Below, piece after piece: positions 1 to 19,570 of a stretch of DNA of 27,305 nucleotides (position 1 is its first letter; each line of letters starts with the position of its first letter). The notes under the pieces are model-generated. The model did not search any database. It was not told the DNA's origin and saw only the letters and a list, made by a program, of their open reading frames with translations. A program made the position numbers and the translations under genes. The stretch spans positions 1 through 27,305 of the IMG/VR virus record IMGVR_UViG_3300017765_000036. One strand, given 5' to 3'. The DNA comes from a virus.

Positions 1-32
1 TTCATCTTTGCGTTTTGAGTAAGTAAGTTCAT
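1..32 (-). CDS. Start of a further phage gene (partial, cut by window edge)
   Basis: An ATG at 32-30 opens a frame that runs off the left edge, giving MNLLTQNAKM. It follows the stop of the preceding gene by about 25 bp of A/T-rich sequence, the usual layout here. From memory, this opening resembles a Bacteroidota-phage protein family that starts with LLTQN-x-K-M-K and carries a Cys-rich core. Ten residues cannot prove that. The call as a gene start rests on position and spacing; the family is a guess. Confidence 0.5.
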   Translation of the reverse strand, partial: MNLLTQNAKM

Positions 33-57
33 TATTTATGATTTTTTATAGTTATTT

Positions 58-270
58 TTAGAATGGTAATTGATATTTCAATTCTTTTATCAATTCTTTT
101 ATTTGTTTATTTGTGTAGTCTTTAGAAGATTTAACAATGTGTAAAAGTGTTGTAATATTTGTTTTTTTCTCTAAAGATGTAAATTTGTCAATATTATTGA
201 TTTGCTCTACTTCTTGAATTATCCAGAAAGATAATTCATAAATTAAGTTTCTTTTTTGTTTTGATATCAT
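58..270 (-). CDS. Small hypothetical helical protein (70 aa)
   Basis: I do not recognise this protein. It is Lys/Glu/Ile-rich and mostly helical in character, with no membrane segment or Cys/His motif. It starts at ATG 270-268 after a short A/T-rich gap behind the zinc-ribbon gene and reads in the same direction as its neighbours. The C-terminus ends in QLPF, which superficially recalls an SSB tip but lacks the acidic residues needed, so I read nothing into it. It probably belongs to the short accessory genes transcribed from the promoter near 1283-1317. Confidence 0.55.
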   Translation of the reverse strand: MISKQKRNLIYELSFWIIQEVEQINNIDKFTSLEKKTNITTLLHIVKSSKDYTNKQIKELIKELKYQLPF

Positions 271-288
271 TGTTTATTATTTATTAAA

Positions 289-474
289 TTAGTCCGCTTT
301 TGTTTCTGTTGTTAAATATGGTTCATCTTTTGTATCTTCAAAGCAATCTTCGCAGATGCTTGTATTATCTACAAAATAGGTCTTATTCTCTTCAATGTCG
401 CAAAGTTCGCAATATCTTGGCTCTTCGTTGTAATTGATTGGATTATTGAAGTCGTTTTGTATGTAGTTTTCCAT
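289..474 (-). CDS. Small zinc-ribbon protein (61 aa)
   Basis: The frame opens further upstream (to 558), but the best start is ATG 474-472, giving MENYIQNDF. This removes an overlap with the next gene upstream and a non-conserved hydrophobic stretch. The protein has two Cys pairs, C-E-L-C and C-E-D-C, about 20 residues apart, the spacing of a small treble-clef or zinc-ribbon fold, in an acidic background rich in Asp and Glu. Such tiny zinc proteins are common in phage accessory regions and usually bind nucleic acid or protein. The partner here is unknown. Confidence 0.6.
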   Translation of the reverse strand: MENYIQNDFNNPINYNEEPRYCELCDIEENKTYFVDNTSICEDCFEDTKDEPYLTTETKAD

Positions 475-494
475 TTGTTTAAAATTTTTATTTA

Positions 495-899
495 TTAATA
501 ATTCAATTGTAAGTAAAGGCAAAAAGAAGTAAGAGTTAAAGCAGTAGCAAAAAAACAAAATAATAATATTTGTAAATTTTCGCTTGTCTTATTCTGTTTT
601 AATTCTTTTGCTATATAATAAGAGTTATTCTTATTGTTAATTTCCATGAAATTATCTTTTTCTTTTTTGTTCATAAAGTGTTTAACGTTTGTCTTTAAAT
701 TTGTTATTCTGAAATTTTTCATATTATTATAATCATCTAAACATAATACCCCATCTCCATCTTTTATTGTTTCTGTTTCCATATTATTTGTCTTTAAATT
801 ATTATACTTTTTCATAAAGTAATCTCTTGCATCTTTCATATTATTATAATCATCTAAACATAATACCCCATCTCCATCTTTTATTGTTTCTGTTTCCAT
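495..899 (-). CDS. Membrane-anchored protein with an internal duplication (134 aa)
   Basis: I do not recognise the family. Residues 1-22 (METETIKDGDGVLCLDDYNNMK) recur exactly at residues 40-61, because 84 bp of DNA are duplicated. A Lys/Asn-rich linker follows, then a C-terminal hydrophobic segment (about residues 109-131) that should span the membrane, leaving the repeats on one face. The first ATG (899-897) lies two bases past the stop of a 41-codon frame. The second repeat carries its own ATG (782-780) behind the same 17-nt leader, so a 95-residue form could also be made. The gene ends just upstream of the zinc-ribbon gene. Confidence 0.55.
   Translation of the reverse strand: METETIKDGDGVLCLDDYNNMKDARDYFMKKYNNLKTNNMETETIKDGDGVLCLDDYNNMKNFRITNLKTNVKHFMNKKEKDNFMEINNKNNSYYIAKELKQNKTSENLQILLFCFFATALTLTSFCLYLQLNY
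717..800 (-). repeat. 84-bp perfect direct repeat, copy 2 in gene order
   Basis: Identical over 84 bp to 834-917, with a 33-bp spacer (801-833), so the period is 117 bp, exactly 39 codons. It covers 17 bp of leader, the ATG and the first 22 codons. A 17-nt piece of the leader side (TTTGTCTTTAAATTTGT on the plus strand) occurs a third time at 688-704. Confidence 0.95.
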
Positions 900-917
900 A
901 TTATTTGTCTTTAAATT
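834..917 (-). repeat. 84-bp perfect direct repeat, copy 1 in gene order
   Basis: Partner of 717-800, matching base for base. It includes the leader and start codon of the 134-residue gene, plus the last codons and stop of the preceding 41-residue frame. Complete identity in an AT-rich phage suggests a recent duplication. Confidence 0.95.
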
Positions 918-1026
918 TGTAATTTTGTTTATTAAATTTAATTGCTCGGTTTGGAAGTGTTTTGTGCTCGTAATTAGACACGTCTACTTCGCAACCGCTT
1001 GTTAGAATTGTTTTCAAGTTTGTCAT
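901..1026 (-). CDS. Small hypothetical protein (41 aa)
   Basis: A 41-codon frame begins at ATG 1026-1024 (MTNLKTILTSGCEVDVSN...) and stops with TAA at 903-901, two bases before the ATG of the next gene. The leader ACTATAAAAAA-ATG is of the type seen at well-supported genes here (compare the gene starting at 6837). It fills the space between two better-supported genes, with no room left over. No motif is recognised; the product is basic with a single Cys. Length alone would not support it; spacing and leader do. Confidence 0.45.
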   Translation of the reverse strand: MTNLKTILTSGCEVDVSNYEHKTLPNRAIKFNKQNYKFKDK

Positions 1027-1043
1027 TTTTTTATAGTTTAAAT

Positions 1044-1250
1044 TTATTTAGTTTTATTTAAATTTTGATACATATTATAAACTTTATCTTGTATAGCAAA
1101 AACCATATCGCATATTTTATCTTCACTAATGCCTAAATGCTCGATATTATAATCATATTTTAATATTCTATAAATTTCTGGTTTTATATCAGTATCATAA
1201 CTAAACTCATTCACTAAATTTTCATAATCTTTAATTTTTAAATATTCCAT
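1044..1250 (-). CDS. Small hypothetical acidic protein (68 aa)
   Basis: I do not recognise this protein. It is Tyr/Asp/Lys-rich and helical, without membrane segments or metal motifs. It is the first gene after the 232-bp gap and sits about 30 bp downstream of the TATATTTG box at 1290-1283, so it should be the leading gene of the leftmost transcription unit (68 aa, 41 aa, repeat protein, zinc ribbon, 70 aa). The start at ATG 1250-1248 is the only reasonable one. Confidence 0.55.
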   Translation of the reverse strand: MEYLKIKDYENLVNEFSYDTDIKPEIYRILKYDYNIEHLGISEDKICDMVFAIQDKVYNMYQNLNKTK

Positions 1251-1282
1251 AATTTTTTATTTTTTTTAAGTTATTAATACTA

Positions 1283-1317
1283 CAAATATACATCTTTTTT
1301 AATAATACGGCAACAAA
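1283..1317 (-). promoter_or_regulatory. Bacteroidota-type promoter for the leftmost small genes
   Basis: On the minus strand the -7 box is TATATTTG (1290-1283), matching TAnnTTTG. The -33 box TTTG lies at 1317-1314 with a 23-nt spacer; GTTG at 1314-1311 would give 20 nt. The -7 box is identical to that of the promoter at 3291-3321. It faces the gene starting at 1250, with a leader of about 30 nt. The spacing is looser than at the other two sites. Confidence 0.5.
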
Positions 1318-1333
1318 TGTTGAAAATATTATA

Positions 1334-1348
1334 TTAGAATGATTCTAA
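1334..1348. promoter_or_regulatory. Perfect 15-bp palindrome, operator-like
   Basis: TTAGAAT-G-ATTCTAA is a perfect 7-bp inverted repeat around one central base. It sits 17 bp upstream of the -33 box of the promoter at 1283-1317, a usual place for a dimeric regulator to bind. The small HTH proteins encoded at 1831-2118, 2136-2327 and 5608-5850 are possible ligands; nothing shows which. Confidence 0.35.
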
Positions 1349-1385
1349 ACAAGTGACAATCAATGTGTTACAATAGGAAACAGGC

Positions 1386-1420
1386 GGGCGCGGGCGCGGG
1401 CGCGGGCGTGTGCGCGTATA
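1386..1420 (+). repeat. GCGGGC hexamer repeat with G-quadruplex motif and Z-DNA-prone tail
   Basis: Four GGG runs (1386-1388, 1392-1394, 1398-1400, 1404-1406) are separated by identical CGC loops, a canonical G3N3G3N3G3N3G3 motif on the plus strand, the template strand for all genes here. Bases 1407-1420 then alternate pyrimidine-purine without a break (CGTGTGCGCGTATA), which favours Z-DNA. This near-100 % GC patch sits inside AT-rich intergenic DNA. On minus-strand RNA it would be a C-rich tract. Confidence 0.8.
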
Positions 1421-1431
1421 GAGAATACCTA

Positions 1432-1450
1432 GCAGTTTCAGGGCAGTTTC
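1432..1450 (+). repeat. Short direct repeat (iteron-like) in the 232-bp gap
   Basis: GCAGTTTC occurs at 1432-1439 and 1443-1450, one helical turn apart (11-bp period), followed by a partial GGCAGG. Next to it (1457-1482) is a strongly A/T-rich stretch. Two copies are few, so the origin-like reading is only a suggestion. Confidence 0.35.
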
Positions 1451-1482
1451 GGCAGGATTTTTTTAAAAAAGTTTTTAGAAAA

Positions 1483-1830
1483 TTATTTTATTTTCATGTA
1501 CCAATCAAGAACATTCATACATTCTTCAAGACCCTTCACTACTTTAGCATAGTAACCAGCCTCATTAAGATATGCCACCCATTCTTTTTGTTCTTTAGAT
1601 GGATAACAAGTTTTGTCTGCTTTGATTTCTAGGAATAGTCCAGCGTATTTACTGTTAACTTTTAAGACTTGCATATCAGGAAAGCCTTTAACATAGCCAG
1701 TCTTCTTGGCTAAGACAGCCTGTTTCATAGATGTTCTAATGCCACCTAGACTAGCACAGTATCTTACATCAGGGTAAGTGTACTTCATGTATGTACAAAA
1801 GGATGATTGAACTAGGGCTTCTTTTTTCAT
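1483..1830 (-). CDS. VRR-NUC domain nuclease (115 aa)
   Basis: This is a single-domain VRR-NUC protein of the PD-(D/E)XK nuclease superfamily. Visible catalytic elements are E4 with Q8 in the first helix, G49-F-P-D52, then E68-I-K70 on the next strand, and Q81 in the following helix. Stand-alone phage VRR-NUC proteins of this length are usual; relatives (the FAN1 C-terminal domain, phage resolvase-like proteins) cut branched or flapped DNA. A role in resolving replication or packaging intermediates is inferred. ATG 1830-1828 directly abuts the TAA of the upstream HTH gene. A G-run tract lies just upstream and a G-quadruplex repeat about 77 bp downstream of its stop. It is the last gene before the 232-bp gap. 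Confidence 0.85.
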   Translation of the reverse strand: MKKEALVQSSFCTYMKYTYPDVRYCASLGGIRTSMKQAVLAKKTGYVKGFPDMQVLKVNSKYAGLFLEIKADKTCYPSKEQKEWVAYLNEAGYYAKVVKGLEECMNVLDWYMKIK

Positions 1831-2118
1831 TTATAGTTTGCTTCCTACTGCATTAGTAGATGACCCCCTACCCCCCCTAGCCCCCCTATGCCCCCTACTA
1901 TCCCCTTCAGTATAGGTAGTTCCTTTTATTAGTTGGTACATTAGAGGTTGAGACACGCTATATTTTCTGGCAAGAGATGATATAGTCATCTTCTGAGTTG
2001 AGGTTTTGTATTCGTTTCTAATAGCATCTGCTTCTTCAACAGTAAACTTTCTTCTGGAGTAGCCACCACCTCTCAAATCTTTTCTGTCTTCTAATCTTAT
2101 TTTTCTAATCTTTGGCAT
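1831..2118 (-). CDS. Small HTH DNA-binding protein with Gly/Arg-rich tail (95 aa)
   Basis: Residues about 24-68 (FTVEEADAIRNEY...SSLARKYSVSQPLMYQLIKG) form a helix-turn-helix of the resolvase/homing-endonuclease-associated type. The N-terminus is strongly basic. Residues 72-88 are a Gly/Arg tail (RGHRGARGGRG) encoded by the G-runs at 1864-1905, so the tail may be a by-product of the DNA tract or an RGG-like nucleic-acid contact. A slip of one base in the runs would end the protein only a few codons away. It is followed immediately by the VRR-NUC gene, suggesting a DNA-processing pair. Its target is unknown. Confidence 0.6.
   Translation of the reverse strand: MPKIRKIRLEDRKDLRGGGYSRRKFTVEEADAIRNEYKTSTQKMTISSLARKYSVSQPLMYQLIKGTTYTEGDSRGHRGARGGRGSSTNAVGSKL
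1864..1905 (-). repeat. Five G-runs (G4-G7) on the coding strand, G-quadruplex-capable
   Basis: The plus strand has C-runs at 1864-1868 (5), 1871-1877 (7), 1881-1886 (6), 1891-1895 (5) and 1902-1905 (4). On the minus strand these are G-runs with loops of 2-6 nt and a recurring TAGGGGG unit. The tract lies in the 3' part of the HTH gene, 34-75 nt upstream of the VRR-NUC start codon, so the mRNA could also fold a quadruplex there. Long homopolymer runs are prone to slippage. Confidence 0.85.
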
Positions 2119-2135
2119 ATTATTTTATTTTGATT

Positions 2136-2327
2136 TTAATACCTAGCACATCTTCTTGCTAAACTATTTTCAAATCTTAATTTCATTTCTTTATCTACAG
2201 CATTTCTTACTGTTTCTATGCTTATTTTAAATTCCTGAGCAATATTGCCTAATCCATTGTTTTTTGGATTACTAAAATAGTATTCAATTATTTTTTTATC
2301 TCTGCTTTTTCTTTGTTTAGTATTCAT
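2136..2327 (-). CDS. Small HTH protein (63 aa)
   Basis: The product (MNTKQRKSRDKKII...) has a basic N-terminus and a helix-turn-helix-like segment, about residues 26-48 (LGNIAQEFKISIETVRNAVD). The start is ATG 2327-2325; the TTG just before it is a worse choice. It overlaps the end of the upstream gene and is followed by the larger HTH gene at 1831-2118. Likely a DNA-binding accessory protein; no target can be named. Confidence 0.5.
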   Translation of the reverse strand: MNTKQRKSRDKKIIEYYFSNPKNNGLGNIAQEFKISIETVRNAVDKEMKLRFENSLARRCARY

Positions 2328-2574
2328 CAAATCTGTCTACTGTTTCACCATATTGATTTTCTATATCAATATTAGTTATAGTTATTTCTACCATTTCTGG
2401 TTTCTTTTTGTTTATATAACAAATTCTATCTATTATCTCTTGGTCTTTCTTTATTTCATTTATATCTGAGGTGAGAACAAAAGTATCTAAAATACCTTTT
2501 GAAAGTTTCCTAGTTATTGTTTTCTTACTTTTTATCTGGTAAGATATAAACACTCTAAAGATTGGTTTTTTCAT
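2317..2574 (-). CDS. Hypothetical protein (85 aa)
   Basis: I do not recognise this protein. It looks like an alpha/beta fold: a basic strand-rich N-terminus (IFRVFISYQIKSKK), a central helix, then a beta strand (EMVEITITNIDI) and an acidic end (DRFDEY). The ATG at 2574-2572 overlaps the TGA of the DUF1599 gene as ATGA, so the two are probably translationally coupled. This supports both being real. Confidence 0.55.
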   Translation of the reverse strand: MKKPIFRVFISYQIKSKKTITRKLSKGILDTFVLTSDINEIKKDQEIIDRICYINKKKPEMVEITITNIDIENQYGETVDRFDEY

Positions 2575-2948
2575 TTTTCCATTGACATTTTTAATAAAAG
2601 TAAGTAACCAATAATATCATCAACAGTATCTTCTGTCTTATCATCAATCCCTTTATTTTTTATCCTTGATAATTTATCATCTAGCCTAGCACATATTGCT
2701 TCTGTAGAATCTAACTTACTAAATATGTTTGCTGGATTTAAAGCAGTATTACCATACGCTGAATTTTTTTCTTTTAGCAGTTTCACTATTTTTTCAACAA
2801 CTTTATCTAAATGCCAATCAAATTTATATTTTAAAGAACCTCCTGACCATTTTTTATTTTTATCCTTTACAACCTCATCTTGCCAAGTATTATTTGGAGT
2901 CCATCCGTTCCTTCCTTCTTTCCAATAGTGTTCGCTATGTTTAGTCAT
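2571..2948 (-). CDS. DUF1599 / nucleotide-modification-associated domain 1-like protein (125 aa)
   Basis: Residues about 47-122 show the family pattern: a helix with KNSAYGN (61-67), a short ALNPANIFSK link, then RLDDKLSRI (89-96) and a final helix EDTVDDIIGYLLLL (106-119). This resembles DUF1599 (Nmad1), an all-alpha group related to MazG-like NTP pyrophosphatases and common in phages. The E/D residues in EDTVDD and RLDDK are candidates for metal binding. Residues 1-40 (Trp/Lys/Asn-rich) are an extra N-terminus. The family name suggests a link to modified nucleotides; the reaction has not been settled as far as I know. It overlaps its neighbours on both sides. Confidence 0.65.
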   Translation of the reverse strand: MTKHSEHYWKEGRNGWTPNNTWQDEVVKDKNKKWSGGSLKYKFDWHLDKVVEKIVKLLKEKNSAYGNTALNPANIFSKLDSTEAICARLDDKLSRIKNKGIDDKTEDTVDDIIGYLLLLKMSMEK

Positions 2949-3162
2949 TTTTATTTTCTTCTAATATTAATCCATCTATTAATTTAAGCATTTGATTTAC
3001 TGTATATATCCTTTCGTTTCCTTCGTATGGCTCATATATGCAGGTAAAGTTATCATCTTTATAAGTCCATAGTGTTCTTAGATTTTTTTTAATGTGAAAA
3101 TTTAATACAGATTTAATTCCTTTGTATGTTCTTTTAGTTTTTTGTTGTGTTTTAGTTTCCAT
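2941..3162 (-). CDS. Hypothetical basic protein (73 aa)
   Basis: I do not recognise the family. The N-terminus is Lys/Thr-rich, the centre has aromatic residues (LRTLWTYKDDNFTCIYEPYEG) and the end is an acidic helix. It starts at ATG 3162-3160, inside the last codons of the 44-residue membrane protein, and its stop overlaps the start of the DUF1599 gene. It is an early gene in the unit that the promoter at 3291-3321 would serve. Confidence 0.5.
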   Translation of the reverse strand: METKTQQKTKRTYKGIKSVLNFHIKKNLRTLWTYKDDNFTCIYEPYEGNERIYTVNQMLKLIDGLILEENKND

Positions 3163-3393: not shown

Positions 3394-3758
3394 TTTAGTA
3401 GTTTTGGTTCTGGTCTGTAATGAGGAACTGATTTCGGATTCTCCCCTGAGTCAACTTTTGCTCTTGCATCCCATATTAAATCCTTGTGTTTTCTTAGCCA
3501 TCTCATATAAGTTGGCACATTTAAGTGTATGAAGTCTCCCTTAATAGGACTTCTAACTCCTAAGTTAAAAGCATTTTGAGCATCTTCAAAATAAAAATTC
3601 TTATAAGTTTTTGCCAAGTCACTTGCTAAACTTTGTGACATAATCATAATAGTATCTTCTTCAACATTGTTTTGTCCTAACTCTATGTAGGTTTTACTTA
3701 TTAAATCTACAGAACTCATTAATAGTTCTTCCTTAGTCATTGTCTTTATCTGTTTCAT
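3390..3758 (-). CDS. Conserved phage protein beside the replication gene (122 aa)
   Basis: A helical protein. The C-terminal part reads VPTYMRWLRKHKDLIWDAR then a Pro-rich end (VPHYRPEPKLLK). I have seen similar small proteins next to winged-helix replication genes in Bacteroidota phages. A helicase-loader or primase-adaptor role would fit the place, but no motif proves it. It starts at ATG 3758-3756, which overlaps the TGA of the replication gene (ATGA), so the two are probably made together. It has no metal or membrane motif. Confidence 0.5.
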   Translation of the reverse strand: MKQIKTMTKEELLMSSVDLISKTYIELGQNNVEEDTIMIMSQSLASDLAKTYKNFYFEDAQNAFNLGVRSPIKGDFIHLNVPTYMRWLRKHKDLIWDARAKVDSGENPKSVPHYRPEPKLLK

Positions 3759-4399
3759 TGGTTAAATTGTTTTTTAAGTTTTTCTTTTACGTTCATATTT
3801 TTTTGCAAATGAGTATGTATCTTGCTCATTCCACCAGTATTGTTTTTAGTTTGTCTTTTTTCCCATGTCCTAACACAACTTTTCCAGCACTTCATTTTGT
3901 TGCGACCTACCATCCAATTTTTACTTTCATAAAAATCATAAAAAGTTGCTGCATCTATATTATTCTCTCTTTGCTCACAATAAATTTTAATTTCCCAAGT
4001 AGTTGGTTTTTTAAAACGCACCTTATTATTACTATCTGTAAGATTAATATTAATACTTGTATTATTATCCTTAAAGTTTTCTTTAATACCCTCCCCATCA
4101 TTTTCTTTAATACCCCCTTTAAGAATACTTAAATACCTCCTATCAATTTCTTTAGTACCTTCTTTGTATTTGTAAGTAGATGATATATAGCCATTTGCAA
4201 CTAATTCGCTAATCCATTTAGATATAGTAACAATACTCTTGCCATAAAGATTAGAGAAATATTTATTTGTAGCAAAGCACTCACCATTCATGTTAAGTAG
4301 TGCAGTTATTTCAGCATATAATAATTTAGCATTTGCAGTTAGTTTTGTGTCGTACCTAACCTCAGCACTTATTATAGCATAGTAGTTTGGTTGTTTCAT
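3755..4399 (-). CDS. Winged-helix phage replication protein (214 aa)
   Basis: Residues about 10-80 form a winged helix of the HTH_36 type (SAEVRYDTKLTANAKLLYAEI...SKWISELVANGYI). After a low-complexity Asn/Lys linker (95-128) comes a C-terminal module, residues 130-180 (KPTTWEIKIYCEQR, then FYDFYESKNWMVGR, KMKCWKSCVRTWE), typical of phage replication initiator or replisome-organiser proteins in Bacteroidota and Firmicutes phages. It probably binds the origin and recruits the host helicase. No polymerase or helicase gene lies in the window, so host machinery is likely used. The neighbours are nuclease, SSB and DnaA-like genes, which agrees. Confidence 0.7.
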   Translation of the reverse strand: MKQPNYYAIISAEVRYDTKLTANAKLLYAEITALLNMNGECFATNKYFSNLYGKSIVTISKWISELVANGYISSTYKYKEGTKEIDRRYLSILKGGIKENDGEGIKENFKDNNTSININLTDSNNKVRFKKPTTWEIKIYCEQRENNIDAATFYDFYESKNWMVGRNKMKCWKSCVRTWEKRQTKNNTGGMSKIHTHLQKNMNVKEKLKKQFNQ

Positions 4400-4912: not shown

Positions 4913-5184
4913 TAAAACGGAAGGTCATCATCTACTTTTGCTGCAGTTTTTTTAGGAGCAGGTTTTGAATCCTTTGGTGGCTCATAATCATTTACATAAG
5001 CATAATGAGTTGCTCCCTTTTCTGATGGTTCTCTTCTTTCTGAAATCACCATAGAAACCCAACCATTCTTAGAGTTTGCTTGTAGTTCATCTATTTTGAA
5101 GTTTGCTACCATCATGCTTCCATACTTTGTTTCAATGTTTTTAATGCTACTTGGCAAGTAGACTTTCTCTTTTTTGTCTTTCAT
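4912..5184 (-). CDS. ssb: Single-stranded DNA-binding protein (90 aa)
   Basis: The C-terminus is KVDDDLPF, the acidic tip by which bacterial SSBs recruit partner proteins, preceded by a Pro/Ala/Lys-rich linker (70-82). The body (residues 8-65) has strand-rich segments (YGSMMVANFKIDEL, GWVSMVISER) fitting a compact OB fold, shorter than the ~110-residue OB domain of host SSB. It would coat ssDNA at phage forks and tether replication proteins. Its N-terminal codons overlap the end of the DnaA-like gene by 38 nt. The function call rests mainly on the tail and the neighbours. Confidence 0.65.
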   Translation of the reverse strand: MKDKKEKVYLPSSIKNIETKYGSMMVANFKIDELQANSKNGWVSMVISERREPSEKGATHYAYVNDYEPPKDSKPAPKKTAAKVDDDLPF

Positions 5185-5596
5185 TTTTTAATTTGTTTAT
5201 TTTATACAATTTGGTTAACGTTTTATTTATTTTATCTATCTGTTGCTCTAATCCTAATATCTCTTCATCAATTTCTACTTCAATAATTCTGTTTTCAATT
5301 CTTTCAAAGTGTTTATTTTCTTTTTTAAAATTATTTTTGTGTTCGTATTGAAACTGAAATTGTCTGGAATGATGTATTATAGATGCATGATGCAGGTTTG
5401 TGACTTCTGCTATATCTTTTAGAGTAAGTCCAAAAACTTCTCTTAATACAAATATATACAGTCTTTTAGCAAATATAATATTTCTTTTCCTGCTTCCTAA
5501 AAATATTCTATCTTTCTCTACATTGTAGATGTCTGCTATTTCATTTATAATTATCTCGTTATAATAGTCACTAAATTTTAATCTTCTTCGTTTCAT
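5147..5596 (-). CDS. Stand-alone DnaA domain IV-like DNA-binding protein (149 aa)
   Basis: Residues about 15-80 resemble DnaA domain IV: GSRKRNIIFAKRLYIFVLRE, then a helix-turn-helix LTLKDIAEVTNLHHASIIHHSRQ (58-80) that parallels the DHTTVLHA signature used to read DnaA boxes. The AAA+ domain is absent. The C-terminal half (residues 80-145) is a Glu/Lys-rich coiled coil. It might direct replication proteins to DnaA-box-like sites, or compete with host DnaA; both are inference. It sits just upstream of the SSB gene in the replication operon. Confidence 0.7.
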   Translation of the reverse strand: MKRRRLKFSDYYNEIIINEIADIYNVEKDRIFLGSRKRNIIFAKRLYIFVLREVFGLTLKDIAEVTNLHHASIIHHSRQFQFQYEHKNNFKKENKHFERIENRIIEVEIDEEILGLEQQIDKINKTLTKLYKINKLKNERQKRESLLAK

Positions 5597-5850: not shown

Positions 5851-6097
5851 TTGTATTTAGGTATTTTTCTACTTTAGATTTCTTAACTTTAAATTTATGC
5901 TTACCTGCATAATAAAAATCTATTAACTGTTCTTTATCTAGCAGTTTCATCATATCATCTTCTACAACTTCTCCAAGCAGATGTTTTTTATTCCAAATAA
6001 TATAAGAATATACTTTTAAAAAGTGATTAAAAATCTCTATGTCCAAATACTCCTTCTCTGAACATTTTAAGCCATTGTTTTTTTGGGTCTCTTTCAT
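5840..6097 (-). CDS. Hypothetical protein (85 aa), start uncertain
   Basis: I do not recognise this protein. It is Lys/Glu/aromatic-rich (EIFNHFLKVYSYIIWNKKHLLGE) with a basic C-terminus. The ATG at 6097-6095 makes a 71-bp overlap with the upstream gene, long for this genome. No later ATG is convenient (the next is M48), so either the overlap is real or a non-ATG start near 6045 is used. The stop overlaps the start of the XRE-like gene. Confidence 0.45.
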   Translation of the reverse strand: MKETQKNNGLKCSEKEYLDIEIFNHFLKVYSYIIWNKKHLLGEVVEDDMMKLLDKEQLIDFYYAGKHKFKVKKSKVEKYLNTNDK

Positions 6098-6966: not shown

Positions 6967-8058
6967 TTAGAAATAGTGTACTAAACGAGCCACTTGACCA
7001 CTTGTTTTTTCATGCAAAAATCCTTCAACTGCTTTAGGAACTCCTGTATATCCCTTTCTTGAGTGCCAACTGTCAGTTCCAGATGGGCTACGCATATACT
7101 CTACAGTAACTCCTATAAAATCTTTTGCATCTCTCCATTTGTGTTTTACCTTGTGGTGTAAATGATGTAAATACCAATATCTATATTTAGTATTACTCCA
7201 CATCTCTGGCTTTTCTTGAGCCATTAATAAAGGTAAGTTATCCATTTTAGCACCATCTCCATGTTCTAATCCTATCAAGTTACTACCATACTGATAATAC
7301 TTTCTATGTGCTACACTAATGTCAAAATCTACCTCTTTATCATTTCTAAACCAACTTTTTAATGCGTGAGCCAAATGAAACCCACTTTGATAATCATGAT
7401 TACTCATTGAATGTATAACATCTACAGGAGCAATCTCTCTTAACATCTCTACACATTTAACATATAACGCTAAAGCAATCTCAAAATGCTCCCACCATTT
7501 ACCATCTGTGTCTTGATGCGTTCCTTTAGTAGTAGTTCCGTAAACATTGTCAATATGCAATACATCATTGCCTATGCAAAACAAAACCCTTTCTACTGCA
7601 AACCCTTGAGCCTTGCTTACAAGCCCTTCTAAGCCCTCTAAAACACGCATACAGGCAGTTTCAACATCATAACCACTGCCAGTTTCAGCCCCATTAGCAT
7701 ATTTGCCTATATGTATATCTGCAGGATTTATTACTAATAAGTGATTGCCATTTTGATTTTTTCTTTTTATTGGAGGGTAGTAAGGAGAGTGCTTCTCTAT
7801 AAAATTAGCAACCTCATCCAGCATATTATTTGCATCAGCAGTTACATCTTCTTTTGTTACAATACTAAATCTATACTCGCCACTTGCAGACTGCCAATGC
7901 TTAATAGAGACTATATCTTTTTTAGATATTCCTCTTTCTGACAAGTGAATGTCTAATGCTGTATTACCATTTAGATTTGTTGTGCTTTCGGCTCTGTTTT
8001 CGTAAACCATTTCTACCTCTTCTTCAGATAGTCTAAGTCTTTTACCATATTTTTTCAT
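6967..8058 (-). CDS. Calcineurin-like metallophosphoesterase (363 aa)
   Basis: The two-metal phosphoesterase motifs occur in order: D114-I-H116 (NPADIHIGK), G163-N-D165, N220-H221-D222 (SNHD), H266-G-D268 and H299-L-H301. This is the calcineurin/Mre11-type layout, with GND in place of the commoner GD. Residues 1-95 are a separate N-terminal part beginning with an HTH-like helix (LSEEEVEMVYEN). Related proteins are frequent in Bacteroidota phages, sometimes called SbcD-like nucleases or pyrophosphatases; the substrate is unknown. It stands alone between the late terminator and the replication promoter. No SbcC partner is present. Its stop is followed by the 129-bp regulatory gap. Confidence 0.75.
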   Translation of the reverse strand: MKKYGKRLRLSEEEVEMVYENRAESTTNLNGNTALDIHLSERGISKKDIVSIKHWQSASGEYRFSIVTKEDVTADANNMLDEVANFIEKHSPYYPPIKRKNQNGNHLLVINPADIHIGKYANGAETGSGYDVETACMRVLEGLEGLVSKAQGFAVERVLFCIGNDVLHIDNVYGTTTKGTHQDTDGKWWEHFEIALALYVKCVEMLREIAPVDVIHSMSNHDYQSGFHLAHALKSWFRNDKEVDFDISVAHRKYYQYGSNLIGLEHGDGAKMDNLPLLMAQEKPEMWSNTKYRYWYLHHLHHKVKHKWRDAKDFIGVTVEYMRSPSGTDSWHSRKGYTGVPKAVEGFLHEKTSGQVARLVHYF

Positions 8059-9300: not shown

Positions 9301-9711
9301 ATTTTTTTTATCTATTTGTTCTAATTTTCTTATTGCCCATTCAACACCAGCATCTCCTCCCCAAGCATCCCACATTATACCACCACATCCTTCATCATAA
9401 GGAACATCTTTGTGCTGCTGATGTCTTTTAAATGATGCCATTCTTGCTATTGTGCTTCTGCTTAACTTTTCTCTGTTTGCTAATTGTCTGGCTCTTGTCC
9501 AGCCCACGCCAGTCCCACAATCGCTACCATTTTCTTCTTTGTATTTTATTGCTCTCTTAGCGTTGGTAGTTGCTGCTTGTGGATAGTCATCATAAGTTTC
9601 TTCTGCATAATAGTCTTTATTAGCAGTTTCACACTCAGATTTAGAATCATACTCGCAATTGCCAGTTTGACCAAATCTCCATTTTCCATTTTCACATTCG
9701 TAACAAGGCAT
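9043..9711 (-). CDS. Phage morphogenesis-region protein with a conserved WGGD domain (222 aa)
   Basis: Residues 1-30 carry four Cys in two pairs (CYEC near the start, then C19 and C27), possibly a small metal site. Residues 48-132 hold a domain I know from phage head-region proteins: NAKRAIKYKEE, then GTGVGWTRARQLANREKLS, ARMASFKRH and IMWDAWGGDAGVEWA. Its function is not settled. Residues 138-222 are a very acidic, separate tail that begins with a Met behind a typical gene leader (ATAAAAAAAATATG), so it may also be made alone. Its place right before the endolysin suggests a late, possibly virion-borne protein. Confidence 0.55.
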   Translation of the reverse strand: MPCYECENGKWRFGQTGNCEYDSKSECETANKDYYAEETYDDYPQAATTNAKRAIKYKEENGSDCGTGVGWTRARQLANREKLSRSTIARMASFKRHQQHKDVPYDEGCGGIMWDAWGGDAGVEWAIRKLEQIDKKNMAKKRKYYSDDEHDYHFHFTEEMMETLHGEGELEVKVEEDDKEMLILFTYGEQESEEYTPEDEEEIKDKFEDYFDEVIKSLKDSK

Positions 9712-9849: not shown

Positions 9850-10296
9850 TTATACTGTTACACACATTAATTCAACATCTACACCATCTGTATTTGCTTG
9901 TGCTGATATATTTGTAATATCTGCAAATGCTCCAAAAGTAGTGCTTGATGCGATTGCATCCATTTCATTATCCATTAATAATATACTTTCTCCTGCTTTT
10001 ATTTTATAAAAGAAAGTGTCTCCTGTAGTGATATGTAGTGTTAAGAAATTAGTATCATCTAAATTTGTTATTCTAAAATAAGTGTAATTACTTTTATCTA
10101 CTGTTCCTCTACCATCTGCCGTGCCAAAATCTATAAGTGAGGTTATCTCAGATTGTTTTACAGCCATTACTCTTTGATAAATCTCGCCATTCGTTGTGAA
10201 AGTTTTATTGATTGTATTTCCATAAGCAACATTATTAAGAGTGTATTGTTCTGTTATTGTTACTGTTAAATTTGCTGGAGTTACTGTTGTTGCCAT
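9850..10296 (-). CDS. Beta-rich virion-associated protein (148 aa)
   Basis: The composition (Thr/Asn/Ile-rich, alternating strands such as NLTVTITEQYTL, YTYFRITNLDDTNFLTLHI, FFYKIKAGESILL) suggests an all-beta jelly-roll-like fold. There are no enzymatic motifs. It sits in the late operon between a fibre-like protein and a short basic protein, so a head decoration or fibre component is likely but not shown. The start is ATG 10296-10294 with an A/T-rich leader. Confidence 0.55.
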   Translation of the reverse strand: MATTVTPANLTVTITEQYTLNNVAYGNTINKTFTTNGEIYQRVMAVKQSEITSLIDFGTADGRGTVDKSNYTYFRITNLDDTNFLTLHITTGDTFFYKIKAGESILLMDNEMDAIASSTTFGAFADITNISAQANTDGVDVELMCVTV

Positions 10297-10312
10297 ATCT
10301 TTTTATTTTATT

Positions 10313-10546
10313 TTATTCTGTAAATATTTTTATTATCGCCCCTAAAGTTATAGTATAAATAACCCACATTGCTTTTACTAAAACTTTTCTCATAGATGTG
10401 TTTCTATTAACTCTAGCAGTCACCCCTGTGTCTGGGTTTAATAGTTTATCTGTGAGCATATCTAATTTTCCATCTAAATTATCTATCTTATCATTTATAG
10501 TTGTGATGTCTTTTTTCATTGCTATTAACTCTTCTTTTGTTGTCAT
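10313..10546 (-). CDS. Coiled-coil protein with C-terminal membrane anchor (77 aa)
   Basis: Residues 5-36 are a heptad-like coiled coil (KEELIAMKKDITTINDKIDN). GVTARVNRNTSMRK follows, and residues 54-74 form one membrane helix (VLVKAMWVIYTITLGAIIKIF). This resembles the XhlA/hemolysin-like small phage proteins with coiled coil plus tail anchor, which help holins. Its location among virion genes, about 2 kb from the lysis cassette, leaves the role open. ATG overlaps the upstream stop as TAATG. Confidence 0.6.
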   Translation of the reverse strand: MTTKEELIAMKKDITTINDKIDNLDGKLDMLTDKLLNPDTGVTARVNRNTSMRKVLVKAMWVIYTITLGAIIKIFTE

Positions 10547-11193
10547 TAGAAAGTTGTAGTTTGTATTGTTACATTAAAATATATAGTAGAGCCTGTACTT
10601 GCATTTTGTCTAATCATTGGAAATATAATATCTCCTGCTAATATATCTGCCCCAGTTATAGTTGTTTCTGCTATAGCCATTAGCGTTTGGTTACTACCAT
10701 CACTTGAAGTAACTATTATCTCATCAATAACTGTAGGCACAATAGCACTGGTACTGCTTGGATTTGGAATTCCCTTACAAATCGCAAGAGTAACAGCATT
10801 AGTACTATTACATGACAAGTGACCTTTTATAAGGACAACTTTTGATACTTCTGGCACTACAATTCCTTGACCTATTCTAAATATATTACTTGGGTTTAAA
10901 CTACCATCTGCAACAACACTAGTACCATAATCATCTGTCATTTCATAAGGAGATTTAGTGTCTTGCAAGTCCTCTCCGTATTTGTAATTAGCAGTCCCAC
11001 TAACACAATACCCTTGCATCTTATACTGAGAAACGCCCATAACAGCCTTAGACTGCCAAGATAAAGTTCCATCAGTATCTGTTGAGCCACTACCAATAGA
11101 TTTACTTAAAACTGTTTCATTAGTAGCAATTTCAAATCCTAATGGATTATGCCTATTTGCATCACTTAAATTTTTATGTTCGTTTGCAGCCAT
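10546..11193 (-). CDS. Head fibre/decoration-like virion protein (215 aa)
   Basis: The N-terminus MAANEHKNLSDANRHNPLGF is a motif I associate with Bacteroidota-phage virion proteins that start with an anchoring segment followed by a beta-rich receptor-facing part. Residues 90-215 are strands (VVLIKGHLSCNSTNAVTLAI, STIYFNVTIQTTTF) with many Ser/Thr, as in fibre or decoration domains. It follows the head-tail adaptor gene directly. A head fibre is the best guess. No enzymatic residues are seen. Confidence 0.55.
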   Translation of the reverse strand: MAANEHKNLSDANRHNPLGFEIATNETVLSKSIGSGSTDTDGTLSWQSKAVMGVSQYKMQGYCVSGTANYKYGEDLQDTKSPYEMTDDYGTSVVADGSLNPSNIFRIGQGIVVPEVSKVVLIKGHLSCNSTNAVTLAICKGIPNPSSTSAIVPTVIDEIIVTSSDGSNQTLMAIAETTITGADILAGDIIFPMIRQNASTGSTIYFNVTIQTTTF

Positions 11194-11206
11194 TTATATA
11201 TTTTTT

Positions 11207-11791
11207 TTAACAATCATCACAAGGACAGAAATTCTTCCAACTATCATAATTTCTAGTTGGTCTTGAATATATACTGTCATACATTATTATTCCATGATTC
11301 TTATAAGTGTTATTGTTACAAGGCTTATTAGATTCATAAGTAGGATATAAACCATTTTGGTCATCATCATTCATATAATCTAACATATCTTTTAAATATA
11401 TTTCAGCCTTTCTGTAAGTATCTTGCTTATAAGCATTTAATTCTGCTGGGTCTATAATAGTAGCAAACTCATCAACATTATGAACGATACCAGCACTACC
11501 ACTATTGCTTTGCACCTCATTTATAACCTCAAATCTAACAAACCAACATAAACATCTTACCAAGAAATCATCCATTAAGGTTTGATTTGCTGTAGTTAAA
11601 GTTCCAGCATGATGTTGTGTTTTTATTTCTTCATAAAACTTATTGCCTATTGCTGATTTTAGATGTGCTAACTCAGAAAGCAATATAGTATTGTCAGATA
11701 TTAAATAAGGGTCTGTATTAGCATTAGTAAAACTATTACTTATAACTTCTGCCCCTGTTACTAAAGGATTGTATTTGTTTACGTTTGCCAT
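11207..11791 (-). CDS. Head-tail adaptor/connector protein (194 aa)
   Basis: This helical protein lies right after the portal. It has an ordered series of amphipathic helices (ILLSELAHLKSAIGNKFYEEI, LMDDFLVRCLCWFVRFEVI, YRKAEIYLKDMLDYM) like the gp6/gp15-type adaptors and the DUF6712-like connectors in Bacteroidota phages. The C-terminus is Asn/Tyr/Cys-rich and ends CPCDDC. The role would be to form the ring below the portal. The start is ATG 11791-11789, two bases after the portal stop. Confidence 0.6.
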   Translation of the reverse strand: MANVNKYNPLVTGAEVISNSFTNANTDPYLISDNTILLSELAHLKSAIGNKFYEEIKTQHHAGTLTTANQTLMDDFLVRCLCWFVRFEVINEVQSNSGSAGIVHNVDEFATIIDPAELNAYKQDTYRKAEIYLKDMLDYMNDDDQNGLYPTYESNKPCNNNTYKNHGIIMYDSIYSRPTRNYDSWKNFCPCDDC

Positions 11792-13430: not shown

Positions 13431-14024
13431 TTATGTTGTTGTTGCTGTTAAAGCAGATGTGTCAACTACAAGACCTGCACCAGTTGCTGGGTCATATTGT
13501 CTTGGAAGTTCAAATTGTCTAGCCATTAAGTTAACAGTTATACCATTCTCATCAGAATAAGCAGCACCTGTACCCCCCTCCATACTTGCTAAATTTAAGA
13601 AAGTTTGGTTTTTAGAAGGAACATCCTCATTTGCATATTTTTCACTTAACCCTACAACTAATTTTTCATCATTTGTAGTTACAATTATTGCCATCATACA
13701 AGTATTAAGCATTGCTTGTAATTCGTGCATCCTAGAATTGTTTATTTGAGGTATCATATAATTAACACCACACTCAAATGCTGTTGAGCCATTTTCTTTA
13801 GTTGCGTTTATGGTTAATGCAGCAGTTTCATTTTTAAATTCAAAAACAAACCAATTTGCTGTTGAACCACCCCCACTAGTGATTTTTGTTACATCATGCT
13901 TACCTGCAGCATTACTATAAGTAACAACATCATCAGCAGCAAAACTTCTTAAGCATATTTGCTTTATTCCGCCTGTGCTTTGTAGGGCTGTACAATCCAC
14001 CCCTATACCAGTATCTATTGCCAT
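13431..14024 (-). CDS. Major tail tube-like structural protein (197 aa)
   Basis: The N-terminus GVDCTALQSTGGIKQICLRSF, the strand pattern WFVFEFKNETAALTINATKE with G-S-T, a middle helix with IPQINNSRMHELQAMLN, and the end YSDENGITVNLMARQFELP follow a protein I know from many Bacteroidota siphophages, where it is taken as the tail tube or a major structural protein. It lies right behind the capsid gene and is framed by terminator-like hairpins on both sides, so its dose may be set separately. A head role cannot be ruled out. Confidence 0.6.
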   Translation of the reverse strand: MAIDTGIGVDCTALQSTGGIKQICLRSFAADDVVTYSNAAGKHDVTKITSGGGSTANWFVFEFKNETAALTINATKENGSTAFECGVNYMIPQINNSRMHELQAMLNTCMMAIIVTTNDEKLVVGLSEKYANEDVPSKNQTFLNLASMEGGTGAAYSDENGITVNLMARQFELPRQYDPATGAGLVVDTSALTATTT

Positions 14025-17110: not shown

Positions 17111-19570
17111 CTATATTCTAGCATCAGATTGTATTACACTTACTGAATTTTGACTATCTGTAATGTCAGCCTCTACTACAACTACTTTGCTTCCATTTGA
17201 CATAGCCCCCATCATTTGATTTTGTCCTATAGCATTGAATTGCTGTTGGCTAAATTGAGGTTGATTAAGCATCCCTCCATCTGCAAACTTAACACCACCA
17301 CCTGCAGCGTTCATTGCTGATAATTGATTTCTAAACATTGATGTGCTTCTTTTATTTATAACAGCCTCACCGCCTTCTAATTCAACTACTCTTCCTCCTA
17401 CTGCAAACTTCTCACCTCCCTGTGCGTGTGACCTACCATGAACCATACCACCATTGGCAAACTCTTCAATCATTCCGCCATTTGCATATTTTTGTGCCTG
17501 TATTACTGCTGCCTGTATAACACCTGCACCTATGGCAAAAGGTATTTGTGCTAATGCTATTGGTGCTGCGGCTAGTGTGAATGGATTAGATGCTAATATT
17601 GCTGCTTGTATTTTTATTTTAGCAACAGCAGCAGCAGTTTCAACTAGAATTTCTAATAGTGCAAACTTTTTCTTTTCTTCAAAAGCCTTTCTTGATATTC
17701 TTTCTACTCCTGCTTCATATTCTTCTTGAGTTATAAGTCCTGCTTCTTTTCTTTCCTCTAACAATTTTTTATCTCTCTCGGCTTGTCTGTCTATATTTCT
17801 TGCCTCTATTGTAAAAATTGCATCTGCTGCTTGAACCGCTAAATCTAATTGTTGTTGCTTTATGTCTTGTTGTTGTCTGAAAGACTCTACCTGTGCATCT
17901 GCTACTTGCTTAATTCTATCTATTTCATTATCTAATATCTGAGCATTTAGGTCTGCGGTATCATTACCAAACCTTTGGTATAAACCTAACATATTAGCCA
18001 AATGTAATTGTTCTTTGGTAAATGCTAATTCATCAAATTCATCTTGTGTTATCTGTTGATTAATAAGTTGATTTTTTAATAAAGACATTTCCTCAGTAAA
18101 ATGATTTTGTAAAAGTTTTTCATCTTCTGCAAACGCATCTTTTTCATCTTCAAGTCCCTTTACACCCCCTATTAAACCTTGAGATTGTGATGCTTTGTTA
18201 GATAATTTTAATTGTCTTTCTACTTCATCATTTGTTTTTTCTAATGTTTTATTAAAATCTTCACCATCCTCTGATGCACTTAAGTACCTAAAACCTAATT
18301 CACCTAATAAAACAGCGAGTAGTCCAACTCCTGTTCTAGCCATTGCACCCCTAGTTATTGTTAATTGTGTGTTAAGTGCAGTTGTTGCTATTCTCCAAGC
18401 GGCAGTTGCTTTTGTTGCAGCCAACACTCCTAATCTGTATAACCCAATAAACTTAATTATGTTTACTATGTTTGTAATCCACTTAGCGGTTGCATCTGAG
18501 TTGTCTGTTAATTTATTAAATAATGAAGTTAAATTTCGTATAATTCTTCTAAGTCCACCTCCTAATTTGTCTACAAGCACAATAGATAGACCTTGCGTTG
18601 CTGACCTAAATCGTTTAAAATCACCCTCTAAAGTATCACCAATAATATCAGACATTTCTTCTGCACTTCCATTTGCTCTATCTAATTCATTTGTTAATTT
18701 AAATATTCTATCTGAACCTATAATCATTTGATTGAAAGCAGCAACCTGCCTTAAATCAACTAACTCCATTATATCTGCATTTGAAAGACCTGCATCATTT
18801 AGTTTGTTTAATGCTATTTGCAAATCATCCGCACTATGAACAGTAAACCCTAAAAACTTAGAGAGGTCTGATGAGGGGTCTTGCATTTTTAAAAATATAT
18901 TCCTTAAAGATGTACCTGCAATAGATGCTTCAATACCTGCATCTGTTAATGCACCCATAACAGCAGTAGTAGCCTCTAAACTAATTCCTGCACTTGCTGC
19001 AATAGGTGCAACTTTGGTCATAGATGTTTGAAACTTTTCTATATCTAAAGCAGAAGATGTAAATGCTTTTGCCATCACATCTACCACTCTACCTGTTTCA
19101 CTAGCATCTAAAGCAAAACCTCTTACCGCAGCACCTGCTACTATTGCTGCTCTACCTAAATCAACATCTGTTGCTGTTGCTAGTAATAAAGTGGCTTCTT
19201 GAGCCTCTAATATCTCTTTAGTTGAAAATCCTAATTTACCAAAATTAGTTTGTAACTCTGCAACTTGTTGTGCGGTAAAGAATGTACTTCTACCTAATTG
19301 TTGTGCAGTTTTATTTAAGTCCCCAAAATCTTTTTCACTTGCACCAGTTACTGCTCTAACTTTCGCCATTTGAAATTCAAATTCTCTAAAACTTCTAATA
19401 GCGTTAGACACTGTTGAAGTGATTTGTCTGAAAGCAGCAACAGCACCTAAGATTCCAGCAGTCATCCTTCCAAAACTCTTAGTTGTAGTTCCAGTTCTTT
19501 TTTCTAATCTTTGTAAATCTTTTTCTCCTTGTACGACTACCTGTACTACTATCTTCTCTGTATTTGCCAT
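17111..19570 (-). CDS. Tape measure protein (819 aa)
   Basis: Residues about 55-330 are the TP901 tape-measure domain (AKVRAVTGASEKDFGDLNK, AQQVAELQTNFGKLGFSTKE, then GITLEATTAVMGALTDAG-like stretch). A hydrophobic mid-part (360-430) and long helical coils with Gln/Asp/Leu (460-640, e.g. FRQQQDIKQQQLDLAVQAAD) follow. Next is an Ala-rich hydrophobic stretch (645-690), and the end is Gly-rich (NGGM repeats, GGEAVINKRSTSMFRNQLSAM). At roughly 0.15 nm per residue, it predicts a tail near 120 nm. The gene is upstream of the head genes here, unlike the usual order. Confidence 0.9.
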   Translation of the reverse strand: MANTEKIVVQVVVQGEKDLQRLEKRTGTTTKSFGRMTAGILGAVAAFRQITSTVSNAIRSFREFEFQMAKVRAVTGASEKDFGDLNKTAQQLGRSTFFTAQQVAELQTNFGKLGFSTKEILEAQEATLLLATATDVDLGRAAIVAGAAVRGFALDASETGRVVDVMAKAFTSSALDIEKFQTSMTKVAPIAASAGISLEATTAVMGALTDAGIEASIAGTSLRNIFLKMQDPSSDLSKFLGFTVHSADDLQIALNKLNDAGLSNADIMELVDLRQVAAFNQMIIGSDRIFKLTNELDRANGSAEEMSDIIGDTLEGDFKRFRSATQGLSIVLVDKLGGGLRRIIRNLTSLFNKLTDNSDATAKWITNIVNIIKFIGLYRLGVLAATKATAAWRIATTALNTQLTITRGAMARTGVGLLAVLLGELGFRYLSASEDGEDFNKTLEKTNDEVERQLKLSNKASQSQGLIGGVKGLEDEKDAFAEDEKLLQNHFTEEMSLLKNQLINQQITQDEFDELAFTKEQLHLANMLGLYQRFGNDTADLNAQILDNEIDRIKQVADAQVESFRQQQDIKQQQLDLAVQAADAIFTIEARNIDRQAERDKKLLEERKEAGLITQEEYEAGVERISRKAFEEKKKFALLEILVETAAAVAKIKIQAAILASNPFTLAAAPIALAQIPFAIGAGVIQAAVIQAQKYANGGMIEEFANGGMVHGRSHAQGGEKFAVGGRVVELEGGEAVINKRSTSMFRNQLSAMNAAGGGVKFADGGMLNQPQFSQQQFNAIGQNQMMGAMSNGSKVVVVEADITDSQNSVSVIQSDARI

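Follow-up and report, generated by a model that had tools for sequence, protein, structure and literature searches.

Phage module boundary sequences are short conserved sequences at the borders of homology. At Neisseria pilE, recombination is directed by a G-quadruplex, and the lambda nin region is known for its Holliday-junction resolvases. Chi occurs at a density of 0.2/kb in phages without recombinases (PMC3784561), and T4 origins consist of a promoter plus an AT-rich unwinding element with an R-loop (PMC3016281).

The locus described here resembles each of these systems in some respects and differs from each in others. Its core is a cluster of the octamer GAAACTGC at the end of a phage replication module. 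The reading we favour, tentatively and with considerable doubt, is that the locus is a Chi-like signal for recombination or replication, specific to phages and situated next to a Holliday-junction resolvase gene, and that the patch following the octamers lies in a swapped promoter module. No description of the word or of the locus was found in the literature, where all papers listed in a search for the word were unrelated.

Layout of the locus

The DNA analysed (the window) is an entire IMG/VR record of 27,305 bases, listed as linear and hence possibly a fragment. It belongs to a tailed phage. Every plausible gene in the mechanically derived ORF list lies on the minus strand. The template strand is therefore, as originally stated, the G-rich one of the GC-rich repeat that drew attention to this gap. 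A 42-bp match between the window and Polaribacter phages, together with Bacteroidetes-type promoters, points to a Bacteroidetes host. A search with the VRR-NUC protein encoded next to the gap yielded 80 related loci, 77 of them with comparable gaps.

Read along the genes (minus strand), the gap comprises the nuclease stop codon, two to seven copies of GAAACTGC, a variable patch, an operator-like palindrome and a promoter. The features of the window are as follows.

1831-2118, minus strand: small HTH protein (weak Mor/HTH matches), whose 3' end carries the G-tract array
1864-1905, minus strand: G-tract array GGGGATAGTAGGGGGCATAGGGGGGCTAGGGGGGGTAGGGGG, a larger G4 motif identified by its G-run pattern, 413 bp upstream of the GAAACTGC array
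1483-1830, minus strand: VRR-NUC gene of the stand-alone Holliday-junction-resolvase type, between the arrays (Pfam VRR_NUC, E 4e-5; PDB 4qbl, E 1e-9)
1432-1450, minus strand: GAAACTGC array, here of two exact units (1443-1450 and 1432-1439), in relatives of 2-7
1406-1420, minus strand: strictly alternating pyrimidine/purine run TATACGCGCACACGC, 15 nt, starting 19 nt past the start of the last GAAACTGC unit
1384-1416, plus strand: GCGGGC microsatellite, 5.5 copies (TRF), a lineage-specific GC-rich form of the variable patch
1334-1348, minus strand: operator-like palindrome TTAGAATCATTCTAA
1283-1317, minus strand: Bacteroidetes-type promoter TTTG-N23-TATATTTG of the next operon, matching the Bacteroidetes promoter consensus (PMC6847099)
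1044-1250, minus strand: 68-aa ORF, the first of the exchanged downstream module, as placed by the ORF list and alignment ends

Positions 714-935, in ORF 495-899, also contain a direct duplication of 105 nt (91%, spacing 117) that duplicates METETIKDGDGVLCLDDYNNM.

The GAAACTGC units of relatives are mostly spaced by 11, 12, 9 or 13 bp. A pattern scan revealed such arrays in many further viral contigs, and some records have two locus units, each a G-array plus a GAAACTGC array. In L293 (1492-1517) and L327 (1369-1403), a second GAAACTGC array lies within an apparent short coding (ETA) repeat, ~8 kb upstream of the noncoding array. Both arrays are absent from three cultured phages (Nonlabens P12024S, Polaribacter P12002L and Flavobacterium mymlan6-1), and no match came up when 50,697 phage records were searched with the array region (blastn, limited by its simple-repeat filter). 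Array triplets in bacterial genomes were considered as further loci and set aside; those inspected with their surroundings proved to be satellite or coding repeats that lack the unit.

The GCGGGC repeat and the variable patch

The original prediction described a GCGGGC repeat with four GGG runs, a strictly alternating pyrimidine-purine tail, and a GC-rich patch set in an AT-rich part of the window. All of this holds. The repeat is detected by TRF at 1384-1416, the strict G4 motif GGGCGCGGGCGCGGGCGCGGG with its four GGG runs occupies 1386-1406 of the plus strand, the alternation is unbroken over 15 nt, and GC content in the surrounding 500-bp windows is 23-26%. A 30-nt stretch of ≥93% GC arose in none of 200 dinucleotide shuffles of the window, and a G4 motif in 5 of 200; hence, the GC patch and the G4 are not due to chance. 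An alternating run of ≥14 nt arose somewhere in 117 of the 200 shuffles, so the tail is notable solely by its conserved position in relatives.

The proposed functions fared differently. Of the explanations weighed here, the least credible is that the function lies in the GCGGGC quadruplex itself, whether as a polymerase stall, a transcription end or an origin mark, although the motif is real and unlikely to be a chance product, and C-rich, G4-capable patches stand at the same place in a few distant lineages. The strict G4 is present in 1 of 77 homologous gaps, that of the window, and missing from the other 76, in a set of relatives that may lack records very close to the window. The nearest relative (L402, the L003 contig) is 96.4% identical to the window across 13.8 kb, and past its last GAAACTGC unit the same gap contains neither the GCGGGC repeat nor any other GC-rich patch. 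The comparison of this gap among relatives, which the prediction itself had proposed, thus turned out against it. No terminator-like structure was found at the repeat, and its single-strand folding was no better than that of shuffles. An Rfam covariance-model search of window positions 1-3000 gave no match up to E=1.

In the relatives, the patch consists of an alternating pyrimidine/purine run of ≥14 nt (up to 47), CA-rich or TG-rich, at 40 of 77 loci, and at 26 of 75 loci its start-to-start distance from the last GAAACTGC unit is exactly 19 nt; the window has a GC-rich version. For one 29-nt patch type (n = 17, 7 distinct), 11 of 11 variable columns are transition-only, compared to 10 of 22 in the flank (P = 0.002). 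Alternation is therefore kept as the sequence changes within this one type, and this suggests selection for it in the 29-nt patch lineage. Of the predicted Z-DNA-prone tail, then, what survives is the recurrence, among relatives, of an alternating patch set at a constant distance from the array; run length alone does not distinguish it.

In about three distant lineages (L293/L315, L307 and L327), a C-rich, G4-capable tract on the same strand lies just after the array, which leaves room for some role of GC-rich structure. The flagged repeat is best read as a one-off form of the variable patch, itself the first part of a promoter module that would begin just past the GAAACTGC array. On the same reading, the G4 and Z character of the window patch is a lineage-specific elaboration with a helper role at most.

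The G-tract array and the gene between the arrays

A putative quadruplex-forming array that is conserved at the same place in relatives, and stronger than the G4 of the flagged repeat, lies at 1864-1905. It is positioned just before the nuclease gene and overlaps the end of the small HTH gene. At least three runs of ≥4 G are seen at this place in 74 of 78 loci, compared to 15 of 3741 background windows. These arrays occupy all three reading frames and extend partly past the stop codon. In 8 of 11 complete or long records, a strict G4 occurs at the G-array and nowhere else (bar the window's own repeat), and in the remaining 3 the G-runs miss the strict pattern.

Across all viral loci collected, a GAAACTGC array follows 105 of 115 G-clusters at a distance of 413±27 bp. 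Of the other ten, five are followed by GAAACTG-type repeats (approximately +403 to +435) and five are themselves C-rich patches that come after the array. G-runs alone were rejected as a marker of the unit, as G-arrays found by pattern in unrelated viruses (L395 and L397-L400) are not followed by GAAACTGC arrays.

The gene between the arrays varies. At least five kinds are found, namely VRR-NUC, a WYL_2 Sm-like gene (Pfam), RusA (Pfam E 1e-14) and at least two others. RusA takes the place of VRR-NUC in L355, and given that stand-alone VRR-NUC proteins cut four-way junctions (PMC4103454), the two are likely functional equivalents. The L355 record contains two adjoining units on the minus strand (10101-11555), one around the RusA resolvase gene and the other around a WYL_2-like gene. 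Short genes between the arrays tend to be accompanied by longer spacers (r = -0.57, 25 representatives), indicating partial compensation of length. The small HTH protein, whose motif is present at 89 of 105 loci, is a candidate DNA-binding partner. As an obligate partner it is not proven, the motif not having been found at 12 of the 105.

GAAACTGC outside the arrays

Copies of the octamer are also dispersed through the window:

2777-2784, 5941-5948, 7655-7662, 9623-9630, 13822-13829 and 17634-17641, minus strand: dispersed GAAACTGC copies

Over 365 kb, the gene-sense strand has 71 such copies outside arrays and the opposite strand 3, and the density outside the array is 0.19/kb. The majority of dispersed copies read Glu-Thr-Ala. 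A sixth-order Markov test gave little excess (71 versus 61.5 expected). Codon choice was more informative. Glu-Thr-Ala is spelled GAAACTGC in 128 of 144 unique contexts (89%), whereas GAAACT is used for Glu-Thr before other residues in 44% (P = 2e-25). The corresponding figure for Glu-Thr-Ala is 6 of 23 (26%) in 400 kb of a Winogradskyella genome, taken as control, and 1 of 5 (20%) in three cultured flavophages without the locus. In another frame, Lys-Leu is written with the rare Leu codon CTG in 15 of 19 cases (79%) where this choice completes the word, compared to 22 of 891 (2%) elsewhere (P = 2e-19); in the Winogradskyella control, CTG completes the word in 0 of 9. Taken together, these patterns of codon choice show selection of GAAACTGC at the nucleotide level in two reading frames, with the word kept on one strand, in this phage group. 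Together with the host control, the codon-choice tests rule out a mere codon habit. In every genome compared, the 6.4 kb immediately downstream of the array are free of dispersed copies.

A Chi-like density of GAAACTGC was seen in 0 of 119 Bacteroidia genomes; the word occurs there, and in 13 Winogradskyella-family genomes, at ~20-90 per Mb. This is too sparse for a host Chi, in a sample that may not include the true host. Because the tested Bacteroidia chromosomes are not enriched for GAAACTGC, a phage-encoded reader would be likelier than host RecBCD or AddAB. Nearly all genes point one way, so a DNA word is inseparable here from an RNA word or a transcription signal.

Homology breaks at the array

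When related locus pairs are aligned, their homology tends to end at this element. In the bins up to 50 nt from the last GAAACTGC unit, internal homology ends reach 106-138 per 100 bp, compared to 0-62 in all other bins; locus pairs share ancestry, and hence these counts are not independent. The modes, at +1, 0, -10/-11 and -22 relative to the last unit, are unit ends. Examples include L008/L010 (99.6% over 5 kb) and L019/L027 (98.8% over 5.3 kb), and the homology between the window and L402 likewise ends at the last GAAACTGC unit. The next groups of ends lie 100-200 bp downstream, corresponding to the promoter and first gene, and 1-2 kb upstream of the array. At the VRR-NUC loci, ends and starts of homology gather a second time ~1000-2000 bp upstream of the array, which suggests a further exchange site among the small genes that precede the HTH gene.

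On these alignments, the GAAACTGC array appears to be the junction of gene swapping between these marine phages. As breaks fall at unit ends and also at the promoter and first gene, the array stays with the upstream replication module, and what follows it (patch, operator and promoter) often belongs to the downstream module that is exchanged. The break positions could in part mark the border between core and accessory genes, since conserved modules must end somewhere. The original idea of a special site is borne out for the gap as the end of a replication module with a repeat array, a promoter and a recombination junction, but not for a conserved quadruplex.

Twelve of 80 contigs (L003-L082) stop no more than 500 bp past the nuclease gene on its downstream side, compared to 3 of 80 on its upstream side, and these may be assembly forks or real ends. 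Such an asymmetry, together with repeat clusters and gene-free DNA, would be in line with a packaging start (pac), or a genome end that is fixed, close to the array. This we regard as very improbable, given that the array is interior in four complete records, whose ends carry repeats of 99-127 bp, that the small terminase gene lies ~3.2-3.7 kb downstream, and that some phages have two units.

Promoter, operator and AT-rich DNA past the array

Nearly all complete records have a promoter 130-190 bp downstream of the array, and the pattern is found in 43 of 105 regions, compared to 1.5 in shuffles. A longer form of the operator-like palindrome occurs in 38 of 105 regions and in none of the shuffles. 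Some relatives have unrelated palindromes in the same place, 60-110 bp past the array (TTTAGAATnATTnTAAA, TTAGTGTA..TACACTAA and TCTAGTGT..), as if operator types had been swapped. GC content drops from 0.42 to 0.13-0.18 at 70-130 bp past the array, and the DnaA-box-like word TTAT[CT][CA]ACA is present in 34 of 105 regions (6 in shuffles). Upstream of the locus, the window encodes two proteins of possible relevance to replication:

3755-4399, minus strand: replication initiation / helicase-loader-like gene of the upstream module (PHROG, HTH_36)
5147-5596, minus strand: protein with a DnaA domain-IV DNA-binding fold (Bac_DnaA_C, by domain match)

Flavobacterium phage mymlan6-1 also has a gene annotated as a DnaA helix-turn-helix protein, comparable to that at 5147-5596 (minus strand).

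The main rival to the Chi-like reading is a replication origin. In that case, a phage initiator (the DnaA-domain-IV-like, the helicase-loader-like or the small HTH protein) would bind GAAACTGC units as iterons, the AT-rich DNA past the patch would melt, and the G-tract array, on the non-template strand, would favour an R-loop primer. AT-rich DNA does adjoin direct repeats whose spacing (11, 12, 9 and 13 bp) is close to one helical turn, the fall in GC content and the DnaA-box-like words are where an origin would have them, replication and initiator-like genes lie upstream, and T4 provides a precedent in its promoter, AT-rich unwinding element and R-loop (PMC3016281). We nonetheless consider an origin unlikely: neither fourfold-site nor intergenic GC skew switches cleanly at the locus, some phages have two such loci, and polar copies of GAAACTGC dispersed inside genes genome-wide are not iteron-like.

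The promoter and palindrome bear on another explanation, in which GAAACTGC serves as DNA activator sites, or as an RNA processivity or stability signal (GAAACUGC), and governs the handover from the replication operon to the operon that follows. The promoter past the array, the operator-like palindrome, the small HTH gene that adjoins most loci and the location of dispersed copies on the transcribed-sense strand are all consistent with this. Yet a transcription or RNA signal does not predict homology breaks at unit ends, nor that the array keeps to the upstream module while the promoter is exchanged, and a simple activator model gives no place to a G-tract array 410 bp away. On balance, we judge this explanation to be rather improbable.

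A possible mechanism

Under the favoured reading of a Chi-like signal locus, a polar DNA machine, probably phage-encoded, would read GAAACTGC in infected cells. Clustered copies would act as a Chi-site cluster, where the machine loads recombination proteins or stops degrading. Exchange, and perhaps recombination-primed replication, would concentrate at the array, and the resulting junctions would be cut by the neighbouring VRR-NUC or RusA. The G-tract array may help to open or pause the DNA via a quadruplex or R-loop, and the patch, operator and promoter would move with the swapped downstream genes.

A more far-reaching version is possible but, in our view, doubtful. A large uncultured group of marine Bacteroidetes phages might have a private Chi-like system, in which the polar octamer GAAACTGC is present in genome-wide codon choice, its array is paired at ~410 bp with a G-quadruplex array across the resolvase gene, and a phage-encoded reader steers recombination and the exchange of modules to one or two fixed sites in each genome. 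If true, these phages carry a private recombination word in their codons that fixes where modules exchange, which would offer a direct, testable mechanism for sharp phage module borders. One abundant marine phage group could then be found by this marker, and a natural G4 array of conserved position would be available for study.

Comparison with known systems

Like Chi, GAAACTGC is a polar octamer that is selected in coding DNA and appears to be linked to recombination, and its density (0.19/kb) is close to that of Chi in phages (0.2/kb; PMC3784561). It is over-represented on one phage strand (71:3; P = 2e-25 and 2e-19 in the two codon-choice tests). Unlike Chi, it is not enriched in the tested Bacteroidia chromosomes. 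As host enrichment is a defining feature of Chi, we do not class GAAACTGC as such. Its copies, moreover, form an array with a G-tract array as partner, and while Chi is recognized by RecBCD or AddAB, the reader here is putative.

The locus shares with iteron and R-loop origins such as T4 oriF (PMC3016281) repeats about one turn apart, AT-rich DNA, a promoter, initiator-like genes and a G-rich non-template strand. It departs from them in its dispersed polar copies, in the two loci of some phages and in showing no clean skew switch. As in phage module boundary sequences, a short conserved sequence stands at a sharp homology border between related phages; here, however, it is a tandem array of a word selected genome-wide, with breaks at unit ends and a fixed partner array ~410 bp away. 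The likeness to Neisseria pilE lies in a G4-capable array beside a site of frequent exchange, although in the present case there are many more G-runs, the exchange point is ~410 bp distant, the partner array is of a different word and no antigen gene is involved. Finally, the lambda nin region likewise has its resolvase gene where the replication module gives way to late or accessory genes, and non-homologous resolvases substitute for each other there, whereas substitution at the locus described here preserves two flanking cis arrays at constant spacing.
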